Assembly (NCBI RefSeq): GCF_000384655.1
Contig: NZ_ARQI01000114.1
Coordinates: 1 to 61,358 of the forward strand
Direction of reading: 5' to 3'
Length of the DNA stretch: 61,358 bases
From: Brachyspira innocens ATCC 29796
Lineage (GTDB): Bacteria; Spirochaetota; Brachyspiria; Brachyspirales; Brachyspiraceae
The notes under the pieces are model-generated. The model saw only the letters and a list, made by a program, of their open reading frames with translations. It was not told the origin of the DNA and did not search any database. A program made the translations under genes and the position numbers. Positions 44,901 through 55,243 of this stretch are shown piece after piece. How positions within the stretch are numbered: the stretch's first letter is position 1; each line of letters opens with the position of its first letter.

Positions 44901-46505
44901 ATGGCAGTAAAAAAAACAGATACAAAAAAAAATACAGCTAAAAAAACTTCAGCAGTATCAAAAACTACTAAAACTGCAAAACCAGTAAAAAAAACAGTAT
45001 CAGAAGAAAAAGTATCAGGCAGAATTTCATACAAAGAATTGTCTGAAGAATTAAAATTAAAACTTAAACAGTCTGAAGAAAAAATAGCAGAACTTAATCA
45101 AAAATACAAAAAAGTTGTAGATATACAAAAAAAGAAAATAGAAAATAAATATAAAAAAATTATAGAAGATTTAGAATCAAAAAAATCTATACCTGCTAAA
45201 ACTCAAAATAGCAATGCTGAAATTAATAAACTTCAAAAAAGATTAGAAAAATTAGAAAAAACTAATCAAAAATTAGAAGAAGAAAAAAGAAAAATAGAAT
45301 TAAAAAATGAAGAATTAAAACAAAAAGCAAAAGAAGCTTTAAAATCAAAAACTGAAACTGCCTCAAAAACTGCCAAAACTGATAAAGAAACATTAAAAGA
45401 AATAAAAGCTCTAAGAGAACAATTACTTGAATCAGAACAGGAGAAAAAAGAATTAAAAGCAAAATTAAAAGAAGCAGTATCAGAATTAAAAAATGCTAAG
45501 AAAAACACTAATAAATTATCAAAAGAAGATAAAGAACAATATAAAGAAAACTTAAAAATATTAAAGCAGATAGAAAAAGAATCAAAAGCATTAGATAAAA
45601 AAAGAGAACTTCTAAAAAAAGAAGAAGAAAAATTAAAAGAAATAAGAGGCGATATAAAAAGCTCTGCAAAAGATATAGCTTCAACAATGAAAAAAAGCTA
45701 TCTTGCTGATGATGAAGATAATAATGAAGAAAACGGCAATTTACTTTCTAATATGGATGCCAAAACAGAAGAAGGCATAACAAAATTGGCTACTCTATTA
45801 TGTGCTGCTATGGACGATTACAGGGAGCAGAAAGAAAAAGAAAGAGAAGAGATTGAAAAAGAAAGTTCTGAAGCACAGCCTATAATGTCTGAAGGTGAAG
45901 AAAGATTAAATAAAGCCTCTGAAGAATTAGAAAATCTAGTTGAAAACAGACTTGAAGATTCTGACAGCAGTAAAGATGAAAATTTAAGCAAAAGACCTTT
46001 TACTATAATAGATAAAATAGAAAATAGCCGTGTAGAAATTAATGAGGGATATACTCCTCCTTCAGGCGGACAGACTATAGTTGCAGCTCCTCAGGACACA
46101 GCACAAGCTCCTCAAACACCAGCCCAGCAACCTAATATTACAGTAAAAGTAGAAGCCCCTAAAGAAAGTGCTAAATTAGCAAAACCAGAAACTCAGCTTA
46201 AACCTGCAAGCGAAACTCCTACTATGAGAATGAAGCTTTTAGATGACATAGATGATTATGAGAAGAAACTTGTAATTACTTATGGTTTTGATAATATGCC
46301 AGAAAATACATACTATTCTAAATATAAAAGAATATTAAGAAATGCTGCTAGAATAAGTTTGTTCGGTAATTTGCAGGAAGGTCTTGAAATGTTCAAACTC
46401 ATAAGAGATCAAAATATACCTGATGAATACAAGCAAATGATAGATAAAAATATACAAGACATTACTTACTATTTAAGAGGTCTTCATAGAGTAAGAATGG
46501 AATAG
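44901..46505 (+). CDS. Long coiled-coil protein with conserved C-terminal domain
   Basis: 534 residues, no signal peptide or membrane segment. The first 40 are Lys/Thr/Ala-rich, residues 40-260 form a very long charged coiled coil (for example KLQKRLEKLEKTNQKLEEEK), then an acidic linker and a Pro/Gln-rich stretch (about 390-425). The last 100 residues form a compact helical domain (RMKLLDDIDDYEKKLVITYG then LQEGLEMFKLIRDQNIPDEY). This layout suits a structural or scaffold role in the cytoplasm. I do not recognise the family; it is not CfpA as I remember it. A lipoprotein gene follows 32 bp later. Confidence 0.75.
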   Translation: MAVKKTDTKKNTAKKTSAVSKTTKTAKPVKKTVSEEKVSGRISYKELSEELKLKLKQSEEKIAELNQKYKKVVDIQKKKIENKYKKIIEDLESKKSIPAKTQNSNAEINKLQKRLEKLEKTNQKLEEEKRKIELKNEELKQKAKEALKSKTETASKTAKTDKETLKEIKALREQLLESEQEKKELKAKLKEAVSELKNAKKNTNKLSKEDKEQYKENLKILKQIEKESKALDKKRELLKKEEEKLKEIRGDIKSSAKDIASTMKKSYLADDEDNNEENGNLLSNMDAKTEEGITKLATLLCAAMDDYREQKEKEREEIEKESSEAQPIMSEGEERLNKASEELENLVENRLEDSDSSKDENLSKRPFTIIDKIENSRVEINEGYTPPSGGQTIVAAPQDTAQAPQTPAQQPNITVKVEAPKESAKLAKPETQLKPASETPTMRMKLLDDIDDYEKKLVITYGFDNMPENTYYSKYKRILRNAARISLFGNLQEGLEMFKLIRDQNIPDEYKQMIDKNIQDITYYLRGLHRVRME

Positions 46506-46537: not shown

Positions 46538-49291
46538 ATGAAAAAAATTATAAAAATTGTATTAATAATATTGATAATACCTATTATCTTTTCCTGTTCT
46601 AAAAAGAAAATATATGACAGAGAAATAGAAGCAGTTTATGACAAAAGAGATAATTCATATACTATTTCATACCCAGAATATAATAAACAATATCCTAAAT
46701 ACATATCATTAAAATATGGTAAATCAGTAAAAATACAAAACGGCATAATATTAACTTACAATATAGACACAGACAATATACCTATTCAATTAAATATAGA
46801 AGTAAATGAAAATAATATAAAAAAAACATTTAATATAGAAAATCCATTAGTTAATAGAAATATAAACCTTACAATATATGCCACTAATTTTAATCCTCCT
46901 TTAGAAAAAGATAAAATCGATGAGCTTTCTGTAAGTATAAAAAGCATAGGAAATACGGATACTAAAGATACAGTAAAAATTGCAATAGCAGAAAATGAGG
47001 ATAAAAGAGTCTCAAGAGAAAATATTGCCTTAATACTTCCAGAGAGCGGACATATAGCTAAAAGTAATCCTCCTTTTATAATGGTTAATAAAAGAACTAC
47101 ACTTACAAGAATATCCGTATCAAAAGAGCTTTCTTTTTCTTCACGCTATGAATATACATTAAGAAATAATAGTTTCTTTTCTATGACCAATCAATTAGAA
47201 AACGGAAAATGGTATATAGCATTCGATGAAAACGGAGACACAAATTTAAGAAGAATATATCATTTCTTTATAGATGACAGCAGTACAAAAATAGTACCAA
47301 TAACAAATAAAACATTTAATATAAAAAGACCATTTGTATTTATAGATAAACAGACATTTGATGTTTTATATAATTTACTATACAGACAAAACCGCCTTCA
47401 AGCATCTACCCTACTTAGAAATATAAATGCATTCAAATTATACACAGCTTCAAATATGGGAAAATGGTCAGTTAATAATATATCGTACACAAATAATAAT
47501 GATACTAATAAACTGAACTTTGAAGACCTTCCTTCTCATGCTATGCTTATGTCATTAAAAGCAGCATTTGAACCTAATAATAATTTATTAAAATATGAAA
47601 TTAAACAGATGATAAGGGATATAGTAAACATAGATGAAGCAAATATACCGAATTATAAAGAAATAGATGCTGTTACTATATTGGCTAATTCTCTTCTTAT
47701 GCCTTTTGATTTGATGTATGATGAGTTTTCTCCAGAAGAAATAGTTTTAATGAAACAGGAGTTTATTAAATATGGAGAAACTCTTTATAATTATATAATT
47801 GAAAATCCTGCAGAATATAGAAAAAAAGACACTATAAAATACGCTTCAGCATTGGGATTAATAGCTATAAACATGCTAAATGAAAATGTTAATCAGGATC
47901 AAATTAGAAATTGGCATTATTTTGCTATGAATTATATTAATGGAATGATATTTTCTATGTTTGAAAAAGACGGCAGTTTTAAATCTTCTATAAGTGAAGC
48001 ATTTGATACCATTCTTCCTATATTTACATACGCATTATCATTAAAAAATGTTGGAATATTTGATGCTTTTAGTTTAGAATCATTTCAAAATATAGGAAAG
48101 TATTTATCTATAGTAGGATATCCTTCTGGATACACATTGCCTATAGGATACACTGCCATAGATAACAGAAGCAGATTAAGATTTGATACTGGTGCTAGAA
48201 GTGCTGTTATGGAGCTTTTAAGTAAAATGTGTGCAAATCCATTATATAAAAATTATGCCGTATTTGCACAAAGTGAATCTGTAAATTTAAGATATCTGCC
48301 TTATGTATTAATGTGGAATAATTATTATCTTAGAGACAATGTGCCTTCTAATCCCGAATTTCAATATGAAACATTGCTCTTAAAAAAAATACAAACAGCC
48401 ATATACAATGAAAATATAAAAACTCTTAATGCTCCTTATTTAGCAATATACGCAAAAGGAAGAAATGTTAATGATTCTTTCGGTCTTAATCATAATGACA
48501 GAATGAGCTTTGTTTATTACAATTACGGGGATTCTATAATTGATGAGTTAGGATATAATTTTGATACTAACAATTATGAATTATTTAAAGATGCTGATTT
48601 TCATAACGGTATATCTATAGATAATGAGAAAATAGAAGAGATTACTGGAAGCTATTCATATATAGAAAGTATAACAAATTATTACAAAATGTTTTATGCA
48701 CATGCTAAAGCAAATCAGCAGTATACTTATACTATAAATCTAAAAAATTATGACAGAAGATTTTATTATTTAAAACCTAATATTTTGATAATAAAAGAAG
48801 ATATTGAAGCCTTACCTGATATCACTAGAGAATATCATGTTTACGGATATAAATATAAATGGGCATTTAATTCAAAACTTCCTATGGTACTTGAAAATAA
48901 TAAATTTATTATAGAAGGTAATTATTCATCTACATATGTGGAAGTATTATCTCAAAATGAATTAGAGTATAAGGTTATTCAAACTAATATAGGAAATAAT
49001 ATATTATACAGAGCTGAAGTTGCTACAAAAGAAAATATTAAAAGGTTTGAGCCTTGGGTGATAGTAACAACAATGCCTAAAAATAATGTTCCTATAGCTA
49101 TGAGAAGAAATATTCTAAATACTAATATTACTGTAAACAGCTTTACAAGCACAAATTTAAACTTTAAAGCAGGATACAAAGATTATAATATAAACATAGA
49201 AAACTACAAAAATACTTCAGATAATACAAATAAAATAAACAATATAGTATATACAGAAAATAGGGAAAATGTTATAATAAGTTCATATTAA
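46538..49291 (+). CDS. Heparinase II/III-like lipoprotein
   Basis: 917 residues with a lipobox IIFSC near residue 20, so it is anchored in the envelope. An Ig-like/strand-rich N-terminal part (about 30-290) leads to an alpha/alpha toroid (about 290-620) and a beta-sandwich C-terminal half. The best clue is near residue 647-670, GLNHNDRMSFVYYNYGDSIIDELGY, which follows the heparinase II/III pattern H-x-D-x-x-S-F-x-x-x-x-Y-G-x-x-x-x-x-x-x-G-Y. The family splits uronic-acid glycans such as heparin or alginate. Genes for amino-sugar use follow at once. The fold assignment is from pattern, so the exact substrate is unknown. Confidence 0.7.
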   Translation: MKKIIKIVLIILIIPIIFSCSKKKIYDREIEAVYDKRDNSYTISYPEYNKQYPKYISLKYGKSVKIQNGIILTYNIDTDNIPIQLNIEVNENNIKKTFNIENPLVNRNINLTIYATNFNPPLEKDKIDELSVSIKSIGNTDTKDTVKIAIAENEDKRVSRENIALILPESGHIAKSNPPFIMVNKRTTLTRISVSKELSFSSRYEYTLRNNSFFSMTNQLENGKWYIAFDENGDTNLRRIYHFFIDDSSTKIVPITNKTFNIKRPFVFIDKQTFDVLYNLLYRQNRLQASTLLRNINAFKLYTASNMGKWSVNNISYTNNNDTNKLNFEDLPSHAMLMSLKAAFEPNNNLLKYEIKQMIRDIVNIDEANIPNYKEIDAVTILANSLLMPFDLMYDEFSPEEIVLMKQEFIKYGETLYNYIIENPAEYRKKDTIKYASALGLIAINMLNENVNQDQIRNWHYFAMNYINGMIFSMFEKDGSFKSSISEAFDTILPIFTYALSLKNVGIFDAFSLESFQNIGKYLSIVGYPSGYTLPIGYTAIDNRSRLRFDTGARSAVMELLSKMCANPLYKNYAVFAQSESVNLRYLPYVLMWNNYYLRDNVPSNPEFQYETLLLKKIQTAIYNENIKTLNAPYLAIYAKGRNVNDSFGLNHNDRMSFVYYNYGDSIIDELGYNFDTNNYELFKDADFHNGISIDNEKIEEITGSYSYIESITNYYKMFYAHAKANQQYTYTINLKNYDRRFYYLKPNILIIKEDIEALPDITREYHVYGYKYKWAFNSKLPMVLENNKFIIEGNYSSTYVEVLSQNELEYKVIQTNIGNNILYRAEVATKENIKRFEPWVIVTTMPKNNVPIAMRRNILNTNITVNSFTSTNLNFKAGYKDYNINIENYKNTSDNTNKINNIVYTENRENVIISSY

Positions 49292-49306
49292 TAAAGGACT
49301 TATTTT

Positions 49307-50080
49307 ATGAATATATATATCGCTAATTCATATAAAGACTATATTGACTTTACAGCTAAACATATTCTGCATTTTTTAGAAAAGAAACAGGAAAAAAAAG
49401 AAAAGTTATATATATCTGTTTCAAGCGAATATGATACAAAAGATATTTATAAATCTATAATAGAAAATATTAAATCTTACAAAATAAATTTCAAAAATAT
49501 ATTTATATTTCAGCAGTCTGAATATATAGGACTTTCCCCTACTGACAAAAACAGCAAAGCATATTTTTTAAGGGAAAATCTTATATCAAAATTAGATATA
49601 CCAGAAGAAAATGTTTTTTTATTTGATGGAAAGGGCGACGAATCTCAAATGGATAAACAGCTTGAAATTATCAAAAAAATAGGCAGATTTGATGTTATAT
49701 GGTATTCTCTTACAGCAGATTCTACTTCAGCAGGTAATGAGAGAATGTCATCATTATCATCACTGTTTAGAATAAAAACTTTAAGCGAACATTCCATAAG
49801 CGAAATAAAAAAAAGATTTTCAGAAGATAAGGAAGTACCTACTACAGTATTTAGCATGGGTATGGGATTTATAGATATTGTAGATACTGTTTTACTTACA
49901 TCATCTGGTATAGAAAAGTCATGTTCTTTAAGAGAATGCCTAGAACATGGAATAAGTGATTCATATCCTTTAAGCAAACTTCAAAAACATAGTGATGTTA
50001 CTGTAATAGCTGATTATGAATCCTCTTTAAGACTTTCAAGCCAAACTGTATTTATGAAAATAGAAAAAAATATAAAATAA
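49307..50080 (+). CDS. NagB-like (glucosamine-6-phosphate deaminase fold) protein, active site lost
   Basis: 257 residues aligned end to end with NagB: EYIGLSPTDKNSKAYFLRENL matches the NagB segment after the MDEY motif. But the phosphate loop is replaced by SVSSEYDT and the catalytic Asp (Asp72 in E. coli) is Ser71. In the second motif Asp138 and Glu145 remain but the catalytic His is Thr140. So it is probably not a working deaminase. It may regulate or pair with the fusion protein downstream (11-bp gap). The heparinase-like gene precedes it by 15 bp. Ribosome site AAAGGA. Confidence 0.82.
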   Translation: MNIYIANSYKDYIDFTAKHILHFLEKKQEKKEKLYISVSSEYDTKDIYKSIIENIKSYKINFKNIFIFQQSEYIGLSPTDKNSKAYFLRENLISKLDIPEENVFLFDGKGDESQMDKQLEIIKKIGRFDVIWYSLTADSTSAGNERMSSLSSLFRIKTLSEHSISEIKKRFSEDKEVPTTVFSMGMGFIDIVDTVLLTSSGIEKSCSLRECLEHGISDSYPLSKLQKHSDVTVIADYESSLRLSSQTVFMKIEKNIK

Positions 50081-50091
50081 GGAGTATAGAT

Positions 50092-52056
50092 ATGAGAATC
50101 ATTATTACAAATGAAAGCGTTTATGAATGGGCAGCATATTATACAGTAAAATGTATATTAGATTATTCGGATACTGATAAGCCTTTCGTATTATCTTTTC
50201 CTTTAAGATATGTTAATAAATCATACTATCAAAAACTATTATCTTTTTATAATGACAATATAGTATCATTCAAAAATATACATATAGTTTCATCTGGAGA
50301 ATATATAGACTCAAATATATCGCAGAAATATTTAGAGGATAATTTCTTAAAGTTTATAGATATACCTAGAGAGAATGTGCATTTATTTGACAGCAATGTT
50401 GCAAACAGAAAAGAAGAAGCCAAAAGAATGGCTAATTTGATAAAAGAATTAGGAAATATAACATTATTAATAGATACATTAGCAGAAGATGGAAGTTTTC
50501 TTCTTAATACTCCAAGCTCCTCACTAGAAGGAAGTGTAAGGGATAAAAAAATAAGCGAAATAATAAGAAGCTATGAAGCTAAAAAGTTTGATATGCCTAT
50601 AGAGATGTTTCCTAGAGAAGGACTTACTTTAGGTTTTGAAGAGGCTTTTAATGCTAAATATGTACTTGTAATGGCTAGCGGATATGAAGTGTCTGATGCT
50701 TTGGCTCATTGTGTGGAAGGTGCTATTACTCAGTTCTACCCTACTTCTGTACTTCAGGAGCATAAAAAACTTATAATTGTTGCCGATGAGGAATCAAGCA
50801 GCGATTTGAAAGTAAAAACTTATAAATATGCTAAAAGTTTAGAAAGCAAAAGTCTTCACCCTAAAGAGCTTATTAAAGGACTTTATAAATCTTATTATGC
50901 TCTTACAAACATTAAAATATTTGATGGTGAGAAGTTTATAGAAGGACATTGTATTGTTATAGAAAATAATGTTATTAAAAGCGTTGAAAAGGAAATAGAT
51001 GTTGATGCTGTTATTACTAGAATAGATTTAGGAGGAAAAATAGTAGCTCCCGGATATATAGATTTACAAGTCAATGGCATTGGAGGATATGATATTAATG
51101 CTTCTCCAACAGTTGAAACATTAAAAAATATGAATGAAGTTTGCCAAAGATACGGTTGTACTTCATATTTACCTACAGTCATTACTAACAGTGATGAATA
51201 TATGATAAAAATTATAGATTTATTCAATAACATAGAAGATTTATCTGTAATGGGTGTGTTAGGAATACATTTTGAAGGTCCTTATATATCGCATGAAAAA
51301 AGAGGCATACACAATGAGAAGTTTATAAGAGAGCCTAATATGGAGATGGTAAAAAAAATCAATGCTTCAAAATGTGTAATGGTTACTGTAGCACCAGAAA
51401 TGGTAAACGGTGAAGTTATAGAGGCTTTTGCTTCTGCTGGTAAAGTAGTATCGGTAGGGCATACCAACGGCACATACAATGAAATAAAAGAGAAAATACC
51501 TTATGGAATAACTTTTGCCACACATTTATTTAATGCTATGCGTCCTTGGGGTTCAAGAGAGCCCGGTGCTGTCGGAGCGGTACTTGAAACTAAAGACATG
51601 TATGCTGGTTTAATATGTGATGGTGTGCATTGTGATTTTGCCTCAGTAGAGCTTGCCTACAAATTAAAAACAGGTCATATATGTATAGTTACTGATGCTA
51701 TAGCTCCTGCTGCTGCCCCAGAGATAAAAGAGTATATTTGGGCTGGTAAAAAAATACACAGAGACGGCAACAGACTTATTGATGATAATGGTACTTTGGG
51801 AGGCTCTTCAATTACTATGAGTCAATCTGTAAGAAATGTAGTTAATCATGTAGGTGCTGCTGTAGAAGAGGCTTTAAAAATGGCTTCGCTTTATCCTGCT
51901 AAAGTTATGGGTATAGATGACAAATACGGCAGAATAAAAGAAGGACATATTGCTGACTTAGTGATACTAGATGAAAACCTAATAGTAAAAGGTGTGGTAT
52001 TTAAAGGAAACTACAAAGAGTATAATTATGACCATGAATGGGTAACACATGCTTAA
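50092..52056 (+). CDS. nagA: Fusion of a degenerate NagB domain and N-acetylglucosamine-6-phosphate deacetylase
   Basis: 654 residues. Residues 1-260 are NagB-like but degenerate: Gly69 replaces the catalytic Asp, the phosphate loop is lost, and Ser135 and Thr140 replace the catalytic His and Glu (Asp133 stays). Residues 265-654 are NagA, complete: HFEGPYIS, VGHTNGTY, FATHLFNAMRPWGSREPGAVG, CDGVHCDFAS, IVTDAIAPA and LGGSSITM. NagA removes acetyl from GlcNAc-6-phosphate in amino-sugar recycling and use. Fusing NagB and NagA in one chain is unusual. The NagB half may be a tether or sensor. GGAG lies just before the ATG and a terminator follows. Confidence 0.92.
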   Translation: MRIIITNESVYEWAAYYTVKCILDYSDTDKPFVLSFPLRYVNKSYYQKLLSFYNDNIVSFKNIHIVSSGEYIDSNISQKYLEDNFLKFIDIPRENVHLFDSNVANRKEEAKRMANLIKELGNITLLIDTLAEDGSFLLNTPSSSLEGSVRDKKISEIIRSYEAKKFDMPIEMFPREGLTLGFEEAFNAKYVLVMASGYEVSDALAHCVEGAITQFYPTSVLQEHKKLIIVADEESSSDLKVKTYKYAKSLESKSLHPKELIKGLYKSYYALTNIKIFDGEKFIEGHCIVIENNVIKSVEKEIDVDAVITRIDLGGKIVAPGYIDLQVNGIGGYDINASPTVETLKNMNEVCQRYGCTSYLPTVITNSDEYMIKIIDLFNNIEDLSVMGVLGIHFEGPYISHEKRGIHNEKFIREPNMEMVKKINASKCVMVTVAPEMVNGEVIEAFASAGKVVSVGHTNGTYNEIKEKIPYGITFATHLFNAMRPWGSREPGAVGAVLETKDMYAGLICDGVHCDFASVELAYKLKTGHICIVTDAIAPAAAPEIKEYIWAGKKIHRDGNRLIDDNGTLGGSSITMSQSVRNVVNHVGAAVEEALKMASLYPAKVMGIDDKYGRIKEGHIADLVILDENLIVKGVVFKGNYKEYNYDHEWVTHA

Positions 52057-52123: not shown

Positions 52124-55100
52124 TTACAAAAAATCAATAGCCGAAATTTCACTTTCTATAATCAATGATTTATACAAAATCTGTATAATCTTCTGAAAAT
52201 ATGAGTAATCAATATCTTCGCCTTTATGAGATTTTAAATATTTATCCAATACCTGATAGCCTCCTATTTTATAAAGCCAAACTTCTTTTGAAACTTTATC
52301 AAAATAAAGAGTTTTATTAATAAATAGTTTATTTTCTTTTTCATTATAAACAGGTTTTTCTATTTTGTTATTTTTGTCATCTTTGTATAAACCCTCTCCT
52401 ATATCAGCATTCAAATCATTGTCTTTCATCAAATGAAGATTGTAAAGCTTAGTACCTAGAAAACTTAATTTTATAAATATATCTTTAGAATCAGTAAAAG
52501 GAATTTTAGGAAAATCTATTTTTAGGAAATCAATATATTTAGTTCTGTAAGTTTTGTGAAAGAGTATAGCATAAATATATCCCAAAACATCTTCAGGCGG
52601 GAAATGAGAGCCGTATTTTTTGTCGATGAAATTTCTAAAATTGAGCGTAAAATTTTCTATTTTGTTGGAATTTTCAAAAGGGTTTGAAGCTGATTTATTA
52701 AATAAAACAGTATCTCCATAATCTTGAGACTGAATAACCTTTCTAGCATTAGGTGTGTCATATATATAAATAGGAAATATATAACTGCCAGAACCTACAA
52801 GGTGTAAATCAATCAAATTATCAGAAATAAAAATATTTGATATCTCTTTTAATTTAGTACCTCTATCACATACTAATCCTATATTATTATATTTTAGAAA
52901 ATGCTCCATTATATCTTTTCTTGCCCTTTCTATTTTATCTGTATCATAATATACAAATCTTTTATCAAAAGGACGGTAATTTATAGTTTCTATAAAAGAA
53001 CTATCAAATTCATTATAATAATTTTTGACTTGCTCTTCCAATTTATCTTTGTTTAAACCTATTAATACAGAATCTTTTGATGTTACTATACCAACATTAC
53101 AAATTCTAAACATATCTTTTACGCTATAAAATTTATCATACTCTTCGCGTAATTCTTCATCTTGTTTGACAAACAAAAAGAAAGGCTCTTTATATTCTAA
53201 TTTACTCCACTCTATACTTTTTATATTATTATCAAGAAGAAAATTATATTTATACTCTCTCTTTCCGTACAAGTCATAATAATAAACTGCTGCATTTTCT
53301 CTGCTGTATTTATGTGTGATAGAGTTTACATTAATTAATTTTTCATCTTCTATATTTTGGGTATGTCTTAAAAATATATTTATACTTACGCCCTGCATTA
53401 TGTCAAATACATTTTCATCTTTGCTGCCGTCTGGACATACTTCCTTTTTTCTTGTATTGCCATGAAGATTAACAATATATATTTCATCAAAACTTTTTAA
53501 TAAGCTGTAACGCATACCTCTGAAAGTGGGATTATCTAAAAATGAGTTATTAGAAATAAATCCGAATATTCCGCCTGCCTTTTGATTATCTATTTTCTGC
53601 TGTGCAAATCTTATAAACTTCACATAATCATCAAGAAGCCATTTAGGATTTTTCTCTTTTTCTACTTTACCGTTTCTTGTTATAGCCAAAGGAGGAGATT
53701 CTAATCCGTCTTTATATTCTTTTCTCACCTCTTCCTCAAATATACCTTTATTGGCACTTGCTCCGCTGTATGGAGGATTGCCTGTTATTATAAGGATCTC
53801 TTTTTCTTTTGTTTTTTGTGCGAGGTTCATCTCTTCATTAAGCTCTTCAAATATATTGTTTTTCCCTTTGCTCTCATCTAAATCTATATTTTCTAAAGTG
53901 TTAGTTAAAAATATATTTAATCTCTCATCATCTTCTAAATTATAATTAAACTCTTCTTTAAGTGTTTGAGATATTTTAAGATGTGCTATTGTATACGGTG
54001 CTATCATAAACTCAAAGCCGTAAAATTTATTTATTAATTCTTTAGGGTTATATTTAACAGAGTTTTTTTGATAATATGATAAAGATTTTCTAAAAGAATC
54101 AAGTAAAAATGTACCTGTTCCTGTAGCAAAATCTAAAAGAGTTATATTAGTTTCTTTTTCTAATGCATCGCCTAAACCTTTATTTTTATTGAAATACTCT
54201 TTTAAAACTATATCTATAGAATCAATAATAAAATTAACTACGCTTTGAGGAGTATAATAAACGCCTCTTAATTCTCTAAGTTCTGGATTATATTTATACA
54301 AAAAAGTTTCATAAAAATGCATATAAGGATCTTTCTGCGAAACTGTATTATCATATTTATTTAATTCTTCTACAATAGATACAATATTTATATGATTAGT
54401 TATATTTATTATTTCATTTAAAAGCCATTCTATAGTTTTTAAGTCATTAATATTTAACTCTTCCAAATCCTGAAGGAATTTACTCATAGCTCTTATTAAT
54501 GGAAATGATTTAGGTATAAACTTAGTCACATTATATAAATCGATTTTTTCATTAGTATTGAGTCTTGCTAAAAACAAACTATAAGTAAGTGTCTGTGCAA
54601 AATTATCGCAAAAGTCTGCAAAATCTATTTGAGAATAAATTGTACTTTTAAATATATTATATAAACGCTCTATATGATTATTATTTTCAAGTTCGTATAA
54701 ATCATCTCTTAATATTCTAGTACGCATAGCTAAAGCATCTGCAAACTCTAAAGCTGTATTTATAGGTTTAGGCTCTCTTGAGAAAAATATTTTAAATATA
54801 TCTGAAAGTTTTTTACTTACTTCTTCAAGTTTAATTTTTTTATAATTTTTAATCTCACTTAATTCGCATATTCTAACTTCATCAATAATATTTAAGTTTT
54901 CATCAATTAATATAAATCTCAAATAATCCGTAATTATAATATTATCGCTCAAAAGAAGATATTTTTTTATCTGCTCGCTTTTAATAATTTCATCAAGATT
55001 GGCATTTACTCTTTTATTTTCAATATAGCCCAAAACAAGAGAATCAATAGTAACTAAAAAATCAGGTGCTCCTCTGCCCTCTTTATCATTGTTTGGTTCA

Positions 55101-55243
55101 TGTTTTATATTTATCTTATTAAAATTAAGATGATTTTTCATACCATTTAATAAACTCTCTAAAGAAGCTCTATAACTATGCTCTTTATCTTCAGTAGTTA
55201 TATCTTTTATGCCTTCTAAATATAAATATAGTTCTTTAATCAT
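52124..55243 (-). CDS. Single-chain restriction-modification enzyme (type IIG-like, N6-adenine methylase)
   Basis: 1039 residues combining nuclease and methylase. The N-terminal PD-(D/E)XK site is seen as GAPDFLVTIDSLVLGYIENKR (near 58-80). A helical linker follows, then the gamma-type adenine methylase: YYTPQSVVNFIID, motif I LDFATGTGTFLLDSF near 372, and motif IV ITGNPPYSG near 488. The C-terminal 400 residues should recognise the target. No separate specificity subunit or helicase is present. It is monocistronic. The specific site is not predictable. Confidence 0.93.
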   Translation of the reverse strand: MIKELYLYLEGIKDITTEDKEHSYRASLESLLNGMKNHLNFNKINIKHEPNNDKEGRGAPDFLVTIDSLVLGYIENKRVNANLDEIIKSEQIKKYLLLSDNIIITDYLRFILIDENLNIIDEVRICELSEIKNYKKIKLEEVSKKLSDIFKIFFSREPKPINTALEFADALAMRTRILRDDLYELENNNHIERLYNIFKSTIYSQIDFADFCDNFAQTLTYSLFLARLNTNEKIDLYNVTKFIPKSFPLIRAMSKFLQDLEELNINDLKTIEWLLNEIINITNHINIVSIVEELNKYDNTVSQKDPYMHFYETFLYKYNPELRELRGVYYTPQSVVNFIIDSIDIVLKEYFNKNKGLGDALEKETNITLLDFATGTGTFLLDSFRKSLSYYQKNSVKYNPKELINKFYGFEFMIAPYTIAHLKISQTLKEEFNYNLEDDERLNIFLTNTLENIDLDESKGKNNIFEELNEEMNLAQKTKEKEILIITGNPPYSGASANKGIFEEEVRKEYKDGLESPPLAITRNGKVEKEKNPKWLLDDYVKFIRFAQQKIDNQKAGGIFGFISNNSFLDNPTFRGMRYSLLKSFDEIYIVNLHGNTRKKEVCPDGSKDENVFDIMQGVSINIFLRHTQNIEDEKLINVNSITHKYSRENAAVYYYDLYGKREYKYNFLLDNNIKSIEWSKLEYKEPFFLFVKQDEELREEYDKFYSVKDMFRICNVGIVTSKDSVLIGLNKDKLEEQVKNYYNEFDSSFIETINYRPFDKRFVYYDTDKIERARKDIMEHFLKYNNIGLVCDRGTKLKEISNIFISDNLIDLHLVGSGSYIFPIYIYDTPNARKVIQSQDYGDTVLFNKSASNPFENSNKIENFTLNFRNFIDKKYGSHFPPEDVLGYIYAILFHKTYRTKYIDFLKIDFPKIPFTDSKDIFIKLSFLGTKLYNLHLMKDNDLNADIGEGLYKDDKNNKIEKPVYNEKENKLFINKTLYFDKVSKEVWLYKIGGYQVLDKYLKSHKGEDIDYSYFQKIIQILYKSLIIESEISAIDFL

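Follow-up and report, generated by a model that had tools for sequence, protein, structure and literature searches.

A window of 61,358 nucleotides, the whole stretch of DNA analysed here (contig NZ_ARQI01000114.1, C114 of genome G000, one contig of the 3.28 Mb assembly of Brachyspira innocens ATCC 29796), carries two adjoining genes for proteins resembling glucosamine-6-phosphate deaminase (NagB), the second of which continues into N-acetylglucosamine-6-phosphate (GlcNAc6P) deacetylase (NagA), and we asked what two NagB-like units may do side by side when both appear to have lost their active sites. The stand-alone protein, named pNagB1, is a putative pseudo-deaminase of 257 aa encoded at 49307-50080; the fusion, of 654 aa, is encoded at 50092-52056, and its N-terminal NagB-like domain is named pNagB2. 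Both genes were delimited by open reading frame (ORF), by alignment and by the profile TIGR00502, joined by TIGR00221 in the case of the fusion. Together with the lipoprotein gene upstream they form three adjoining genes on the + strand, as the preliminary description of this DNA had stated, and the ORF coordinates confirm its spacing of 11-15 bp (15 bp between lipoprotein and pNagB1, 11 bp between pNagB1 and fusion). NagB residue positions follow E. coli NagB, G-numbers denote genomes, and the comparison rests on the Brachyspira family (f1) and a distant spirochaete family (f35). The answer that we propose tentatively, giving it slightly less than an even chance, is that the fusion would carry an oligomer-forming regulatory domain that senses GlcNAc6P and is attached to the only NagA in the cell.

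When 22 different pNagB1 and 25 different pNagB2 sequences from the Brachyspira family were aligned with E. coli NagB and the second NagB of the genome, catalytic residues proved to have been lost from both NagB-like units: Asp72 is replaced by Ser71 in pNagB1 and Gly69 in pNagB2, His143 by Thr140 and Ser135, respectively, and the phosphate loop 41-44 is absent from both. These losses, down to the residue numbers, had been described before and proved correct; the naming of the two units as pseudo-deaminases is likewise supported, and both are in addition conserved under strong selection. With f35 included, 55 pseudo-NagBs were compared (29 pNagB2 and 26 pNagB1). The general base Asp72 occurs in none of the 55 and in all 20 other NagBs of the phylum that have allosteric-type residues, and none of 13 catalytic positions is kept in every pseudo-NagB. 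Arg172 is mostly Lys in pNagB2 of the genus, where Lys208 is lost. The score of pNagB1 against Pfam Glucosamine_iso was 28.4 bits, barely above the cut-off of 27, and both units fell below the cut-off of 236.9 bits of the nagB equivalog TIGR00502 (pNagB1, 129.8 bits, E 1e-37; pNagB2, 153.7 bits, E 6e-45). Complementation of the two copies into one active site is ruled out because pNagB1 and pNagB2 of this genome both lack Asp72 and His143.

The allosteric site had a different fate, its residues having been retained, as far as alignment tells, while the catalytic ones were lost. According to PMC4281351, GlcNAc6P is contacted in E. coli NagB by Tyr121, Asp141, Glu148, Ser151, Arg158, Lys160 and Tyr254, and PMC4008608 divides the site into a face A with most of the contacts and a facing side formed by the N-terminal amine and Tyr254 of the neighbouring subunit. 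Every one of the 55 pseudo-NagBs has Ser151, Arg158 and Lys160. These three are among the 13 of 266 E. coli residues kept throughout (I125, G129, N147, S151, L153, R158, K160, P182, G189, E217, S227, Q230 and H232); the residues conserved in active NagBs contribute 11 of their 73 to all pseudo-NagBs. All four allosteric columns examined in pNagB1 of the Brachyspira family (Ser151, Ser152, Arg158 and Lys160) are invariant. In the window the kept segment lies at 49748-49780 of the + strand in pNagB1 (residues 148-158, E. coli Ser151-Thr161) and at 50518-50547 of the + strand in pNagB2 (residues 143-152, E. coli Ser151-Lys160). The pNagB2 domain (aa 1-255, 50092-50856, + strand) retains by alignment its native N-terminus, and none of the 29 pNagB2 sequences lacks Met1, Arg2, Ile4 or Tyr254; Tyr246 of the window's pNagB2 (50827-50829, + strand) aligns with Tyr254, which PMC4008608 places on the other face of the inter-subunit site. 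With residues of both faces in place by alignment, pNagB2 alone could build complete inter-subunit sites, and pNagB1 could offer face A only. Ser151, Arg158 and Lys160 are not needed for the fold, because the non-allosteric NagBs of this and neighbouring genomes lack them and keep their active site intact. Three of five allosteric-only residues are kept, an enrichment with a hypergeometric P of 9e-4 against all columns when relatedness is ignored.

The NagA domain (50896-52056, + strand) passes the nagA equivalog TIGR00221 with 367.5 bits against a cut-off of 225.65, and it is the sole NagA of the genome, the other match being far below the cut-off. Twelve NagA residues of known role were checked in 29 fusions: ten are invariant (Gln59, Asn61, Glu131, His143, His195, His216, Asn219, Arg227, His251 and Asp273), Ala220 is present in 28, and Ser307 is replaced by Gly or Ala in 28. 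Equivalog score and conserved residues agree in pointing to an intact NagA, as previously described. The two parts are joined nearly end to end: where E. coli NagB finishes with IKGL and NagA of that species opens with MYALT, the junction here reads HPKELIKGLYKSY-YALTN, the linker HPKELIKGLYKSY (50857-50895, + strand) being conserved in alignment and common to f35. A Foldseek search with the low-confidence AlphaFold model of the fusion returned, at E <= 0.001, NagA, NagB and related NagB-fold chains only.

The fusion was found in all 26 genomes of the genus, at 651-654 aa in 24 of them, the copies of G020 and G023 ending at contig edges; with G027, which belongs to a sister genus and has a copy in the same length range, 27 genomes of the Brachyspira family carry it. 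The constant length across genomes and the ribosome site of AAGGAG type before the fusion ORF rule out a wrong frame or start as the origin of the fusion, and its earlier description as a NagB-NagA fusion holds; a site of AAAGGA type precedes the pNagB1 ORF. pNagB1 is present in 24 of the 26 genomes, intact in 21, cut at a contig edge in G012 and in two pieces in G008 and G015. G001 and G003 have no pNagB1, coiled-coil or lipoprotein gene, yet carry the fusion. All four genes occur in G027 and neither NagB nor NagA in G026; in G028 the NagB family is represented by two other proteins, and nothing scores above the cut-off for NagA. The break in pNagB1 lies near the 5' end in G015 (Brachyspira sp. 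G79; L075/L109) and G008 (L076), the rest of the locus being intact, and may be a real loss or a sequencing error.

Among the matches listed for the 392 phylum genomes scored, the fusion was seen only in genomes of the Brachyspira family and in four of f35 (G095, G100, G116 and G132), each of the four with a NagB-like gene directly upstream. The f35 pair sits between ptsI and an EIIA gene that, from its sequence, we take to be crr-like. Asp72 is lost from both copies in 4/4 f35 genomes, the phosphate loop is mostly kept, and His143 is still present in their pNagB2 in 4/4. G027, G095, G116 and G132 have a stand-alone NagA in addition. A further candidate, a 623-aa open frame in G304, was rejected, this genome having separate nagA and nagB genes.

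In a tree of 54 NagB domains, the pNagB2 sequences of the two families formed one clade (98/92) and their pNagB1 sequences another (95/73), with long stems for f1. The shared clades and the shared linker indicate that duplication, fusion and Asp72 loss took place before the f1 and f35 genes separated, whether by vertical descent or by transfer. By this phylogenetic evidence the NagB-NagA fusion is ancient, and the active sites appear to have been eroded further in the Brachyspira line after that separation. Ratios of nonsynonymous to synonymous substitution rates (dN/dS) were computed from nine Brachyspira genome pairs, or eight in the case of pNagB1, with these ranges: pNagB2, 0.020-0.048; NagA, 0.014-0.049; pNagB1, 0.029-0.105; active NagB, 0.040-0.116; lipoprotein, 0.050-0.185. 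The dead pNagB2 domain is more constrained than the active NagB and is under purifying selection as strong as that on NagA. A decaying pseudogene is ruled out by these ratios and by the conservation in two families.

The search for a complete nagB elsewhere, proposed in the preliminary description, yielded one on contig C112 of the same genome, which has Asp72, His143 and the 41-44 loop, that is, a complete active site, and Glu, Val, Leu and Val at positions 151, 152, 158 and 160. A genome without an active NagB is ruled out by this gene. Such a canonical non-allosteric NagB coexists with the fusion in 26 of 26 genomes of the genus (of the other 25, 24 were checked by alignment rows and G003 was read by eye), and one with a full active site was found in three of the four f35 genomes, the fourth genome being 79% complete. 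From its sequence the canonical NagB lacks the C-terminal helix which, according to PMC9812318, marks hexameric NagB forms. It corresponds to the monomeric non-allosteric NagB of the B. subtilis / S. mutans type, whose complete active site and absent allosteric residues are the mirror image of the pseudo-NagBs of the same genomes, and presumably does the deamination.

Other NagB-family sequences were noted in the course of this comparison. In G003 (contig listed as B. catarrhinii Z12; L081:12-1469) the canonical NagB stands in one frame behind a mannitol-1-phosphate dehydrogenase-like sequence and a lysine-rich stretch. This arrangement may reflect a real fusion or may stem from the assembly; in the related genome G001 the canonical NagB stands alone, without that upstream part. 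An extra NagB/AgaI-like protein of 240 aa is encoded in G020 (L104:506-1228), adjoining a convergent DeoR-like regulator. G028 (L074:5665-6387) encodes a NagB-family protein with a GGDT loop, probably a further deaminase or isomerase of phosphosugars, within an apparent cluster of sugar ABC transporter and kinase genes. For B. pilosicoli, PMC4955376 reports that a NagB, D8IEE0, was detected more often than any other product of its group, and in the surfaceome fraction only.

We propose that both NagB-like units would be pseudo-enzymes descended from a hexameric, GlcNAc6P-activated deaminase, in which deamination was lost and the GlcNAc6P allosteric site retained. With hexameric NagB of the E. 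coli type (TIGR00502) they share ancestry, fold as judged by sequence, and Ser151, Arg158 and Lys160, to which pNagB2 adds, by alignment, the N-terminus and Tyr254; they differ from it in that its Asp72, His143, phosphate loop and Arg172 (mostly Lys in pNagB2) are lost in the pseudo-NagBs of the genus and its Lys208 in their pNagB2, and in that pNagB2 is fused to NagA. The pNagB2 domains, together with pNagB1 where present, would assemble NagB-like rings, and the sites between ring subunits would bind GlcNAc6P. This ligand is the substrate of the attached NagA, so its binding might switch or tune NagA once GlcNAc arrives through the phosphotransferase system (PTS), with real deamination left to the separate non-allosteric NagB. 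The genome encodes NagE, the GlcNAc PTS, and with a PTS of this type GlcNAc should enter as GlcNAc6P, at once the NagA substrate and the predicted ligand of the kept site. That rings form, that they bind GlcNAc6P and that binding controls NagA are steps that we infer. The full scenario, in which the sensing site of an ancient deaminase outlived its catalysis, the ring was joined to NagA as a substrate-gated controller, and pNagB1 perhaps adds face A in mixed rings, is possible and somewhat more doubtful than the proposal of a sensing domain as such. The preliminary description had suggested a complex that senses glucosamine-6-phosphate (GlcN6P) or channels GlcNAc6P. A complex or sensor is plausible, but the residues kept point to GlcNAc6P; sensing of GlcN6P seems less likely in the genus because the active-site contacts for it are lost. 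For channelling to a deaminase we found no positive evidence.

Several observations weigh against a GlcNAc6P-sensing ring. The enrichment of allosteric residues is modest (P 0.0097 against columns conserved in active NagBs, relatedness again ignored), and calculated per lineage against the conserved background it is not significant (P 0.07). Tyr121 is lost in the Brachyspira family and Glu148 in its pNagB2, and pNagB2 has Lys/Arg or Glu in place of Thr161 and Asp in place of Ile159. The C-terminus of pNagB1 is shortened, with most of the C-terminal helix gone, and Tyr254 is found in 0 of 26 pNagB1 sequences; nor does the fusion need pNagB1, since G001 and G003 lack the latter and G008 and G015 have it in two pieces. 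In f35 pNagB2, 14 of 17 former active-site columns are invariant, above average (P 0.02), and a second bound ligand there would be possible; in either family pNagB2 may bind a further ligand or have formed a new pocket. The AlphaFold model of the fusion is of low confidence (predicted local distance difference test score, pLDDT, of 47.7) and unusable.

The main rival is a purely structural role, in which pNagB2 would hold NagA in an oligomer and stabilise it, the allosteric residues serving as interface with no sensing. The strong constraint across the whole pNagB2 domain and linker would suit such a role, and the retained residues do sit at the subunit interface according to PMC4008608. Selective retention of the charged ligand contacts, when other residues conserved in active NagBs are mostly lost (11/73 kept), is harder to reconcile with it, and other NagAs manage without such a domain, as the stand-alone NagA of G027, G095, G116 and G132 illustrates; we consider the structural role unlikely. 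Still less probable to us is that the pseudo-NagBs act on the active NagB as scaffold or regulator, recruiting it, channelling GlcN6P to it from NagA or lending it allosteric control. Coexistence of the canonical NagB with the fusion, throughout the genus and in three of the four f35 genomes, is what such a partnership would predict; that NagB, however, lacks in its sequence the helix that marks hexamers (PMC9812318) and is encoded elsewhere in the genome, and G028 has a canonical NagB without any pseudo-NagB.

Slightly more improbable again is that the pseudo-NagBs are still or newly catalytic, as a weak deaminase, an isomerase or in another phosphosugar reaction through other residues. The pNagB2 of f35 speaks for this with His143, most of the GGT loop and Lys208 kept, though Asp72, Thr41 and Arg172 are changed, and so does that of the Brachyspira family, in which 10 of 17 former active-site columns are invariant and some carry new residues that have become fixed. 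The active-site columns of pNagB1 in the same family vary freely (2 of 17 invariant, as against 32% of columns overall), and the loss of Asp72 from 55/55 pseudo-NagBs, when 20/20 allosteric-type NagBs of the phylum have it, argues against catalysis. Of all the alternatives we give least credence to a sensor acting on PTS proteins or on gene control, to which NagA would be fused merely for co-expression. It draws on the location of the f35 pair between the EIIA gene and ptsI, but the domain search matched no DNA-binding domain in pNagB1 or the fusion, and the listed neighbours of the f1 locus, read by eye, show no PTS gene.

A NagB-type fold turned to sensing is known from the SorC/DeoR regulator family, whose NagB-like phosphosugar sensors regulate transcription and bind their effector where the active site used to be; here it is the allosteric site that is kept, and the proposed output is an enzyme. 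Regulatory pseudo-enzyme subunits, in which a dead paralogue regulates a metabolic enzyme, are likewise known from the trypanosome AdoMetDC prozyme and from GlgD, and the difference from these is that the dead enzyme would, by our proposal, regulate the preceding enzyme of its own pathway, to which it is covalently fused. A protein of similar size (about 650 aa) with a NagB-like domain is also described by NF002557 / PRK02122 ('glucosamine-6-phosphate deaminase-like protein', 653-position model); the matches to this model cover the NagB part only (profile positions 33-277), and its second domain is, we assume, LmbE/PIG-L-like and not NagA. Neither a NagB-NagA fusion nor a dead NagB paralogue was found by title or abstract opening among the top-ranked literature records, subscription journals being outside the scope of that search. 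Three f35 NagB-like proteins tested pass TIGR00502 (291, 298 and 248 bits; L125 and L127 are among the f35 loci) despite the loss of Asp72, and being above the cut-off they would be annotated as active deaminases. GlcNAc metabolism of Brachyspira may similarly be misread if pseudo-NagBs are counted as deaminases. If the proposal is true, the fusion would be a natural model of allosteric control moving between enzymes, with catalysis lost, the site kept and the domain fused to the enzyme that consumes the effector. Regulatory pseudo-enzymes being known already, the new part would be a clean case in which a kept allosteric site is fused to the effector consumer. E. coli NagB is a long-studied allosteric protein, and its known ligands and mutants make the prediction testable at once.

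The lipoprotein encoded immediately upstream (46538-49291, + strand; 917 aa, lipobox Cys20) was characterised by alignment, fold match and the Pfam match of an orthologue. The window protein and its close relatives gave no relevant match to Pfam or NCBIfam models or, in a profile search, to PDB sequences; the G026 orthologue passes PF07940 Hepar_II_III_C (30.3 against 24 bits), and G029 encodes a weak relative (5e-7) that is clearly of the Hepar_II_III type, with which profile comparison aligned about 360 columns at 75.6% probability. Its AlphaFold model is of low confidence (pLDDT 54.5). The 31 Foldseek matches of this low-confidence model at E <= 0.001 consist entirely of polysaccharide lyases and related enzymes with the heparinase II/III fold, among them exo-heparinase, alginate lyases, chondroitinases and dermatan sulfate epimerase; comparison of the model with VIA gave a Z of 19.1 and a root-mean-square deviation of 15.9 with 451 aligned. 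Sequence alignment points to an invariant His652 and other candidate catalytic residues. The heparinase-like label is supported, on these models and profiles, as a fair one at the level of fold and family, lyase activity being a prediction only.

Of the earlier picture of a heparinase-like lipoprotein within an amino-sugar locus, the fold part stands, by Foldseek and by PF07940 in G026; the case for membership of the nag unit is weak, the genes being separable across genomes. The lipoprotein gene occurs without any nag gene in G026, and the fusion without the lipoprotein in G001, G003 and f35, a gene content that weakens the notion of a nag operon with the lipoprotein as partner. The lipoprotein is probably a mere neighbour of the nag genes, and its products may or may not feed the nag pathway. 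A coiled-coil protein gene that travels with it (44901-46505, + strand) was recognised by domain search and neighbourhood comparison. In G026 (L176), which has no nag genes, the coiled-coil and lipoprotein genes form a pair immediately followed by a proC-like gene; either pair of the four-gene block can be lost while the other stays.

Next after the fusion, at 52124-55243 on the - strand of the window, lies a gene for a restriction-modification-like protein of 1039 aa. Similar genes occupy this spot in G009 and G025 and different genes in the other genomes, and because gene content there differs among genomes the site downstream of the fusion looks like an insertion hot spot.

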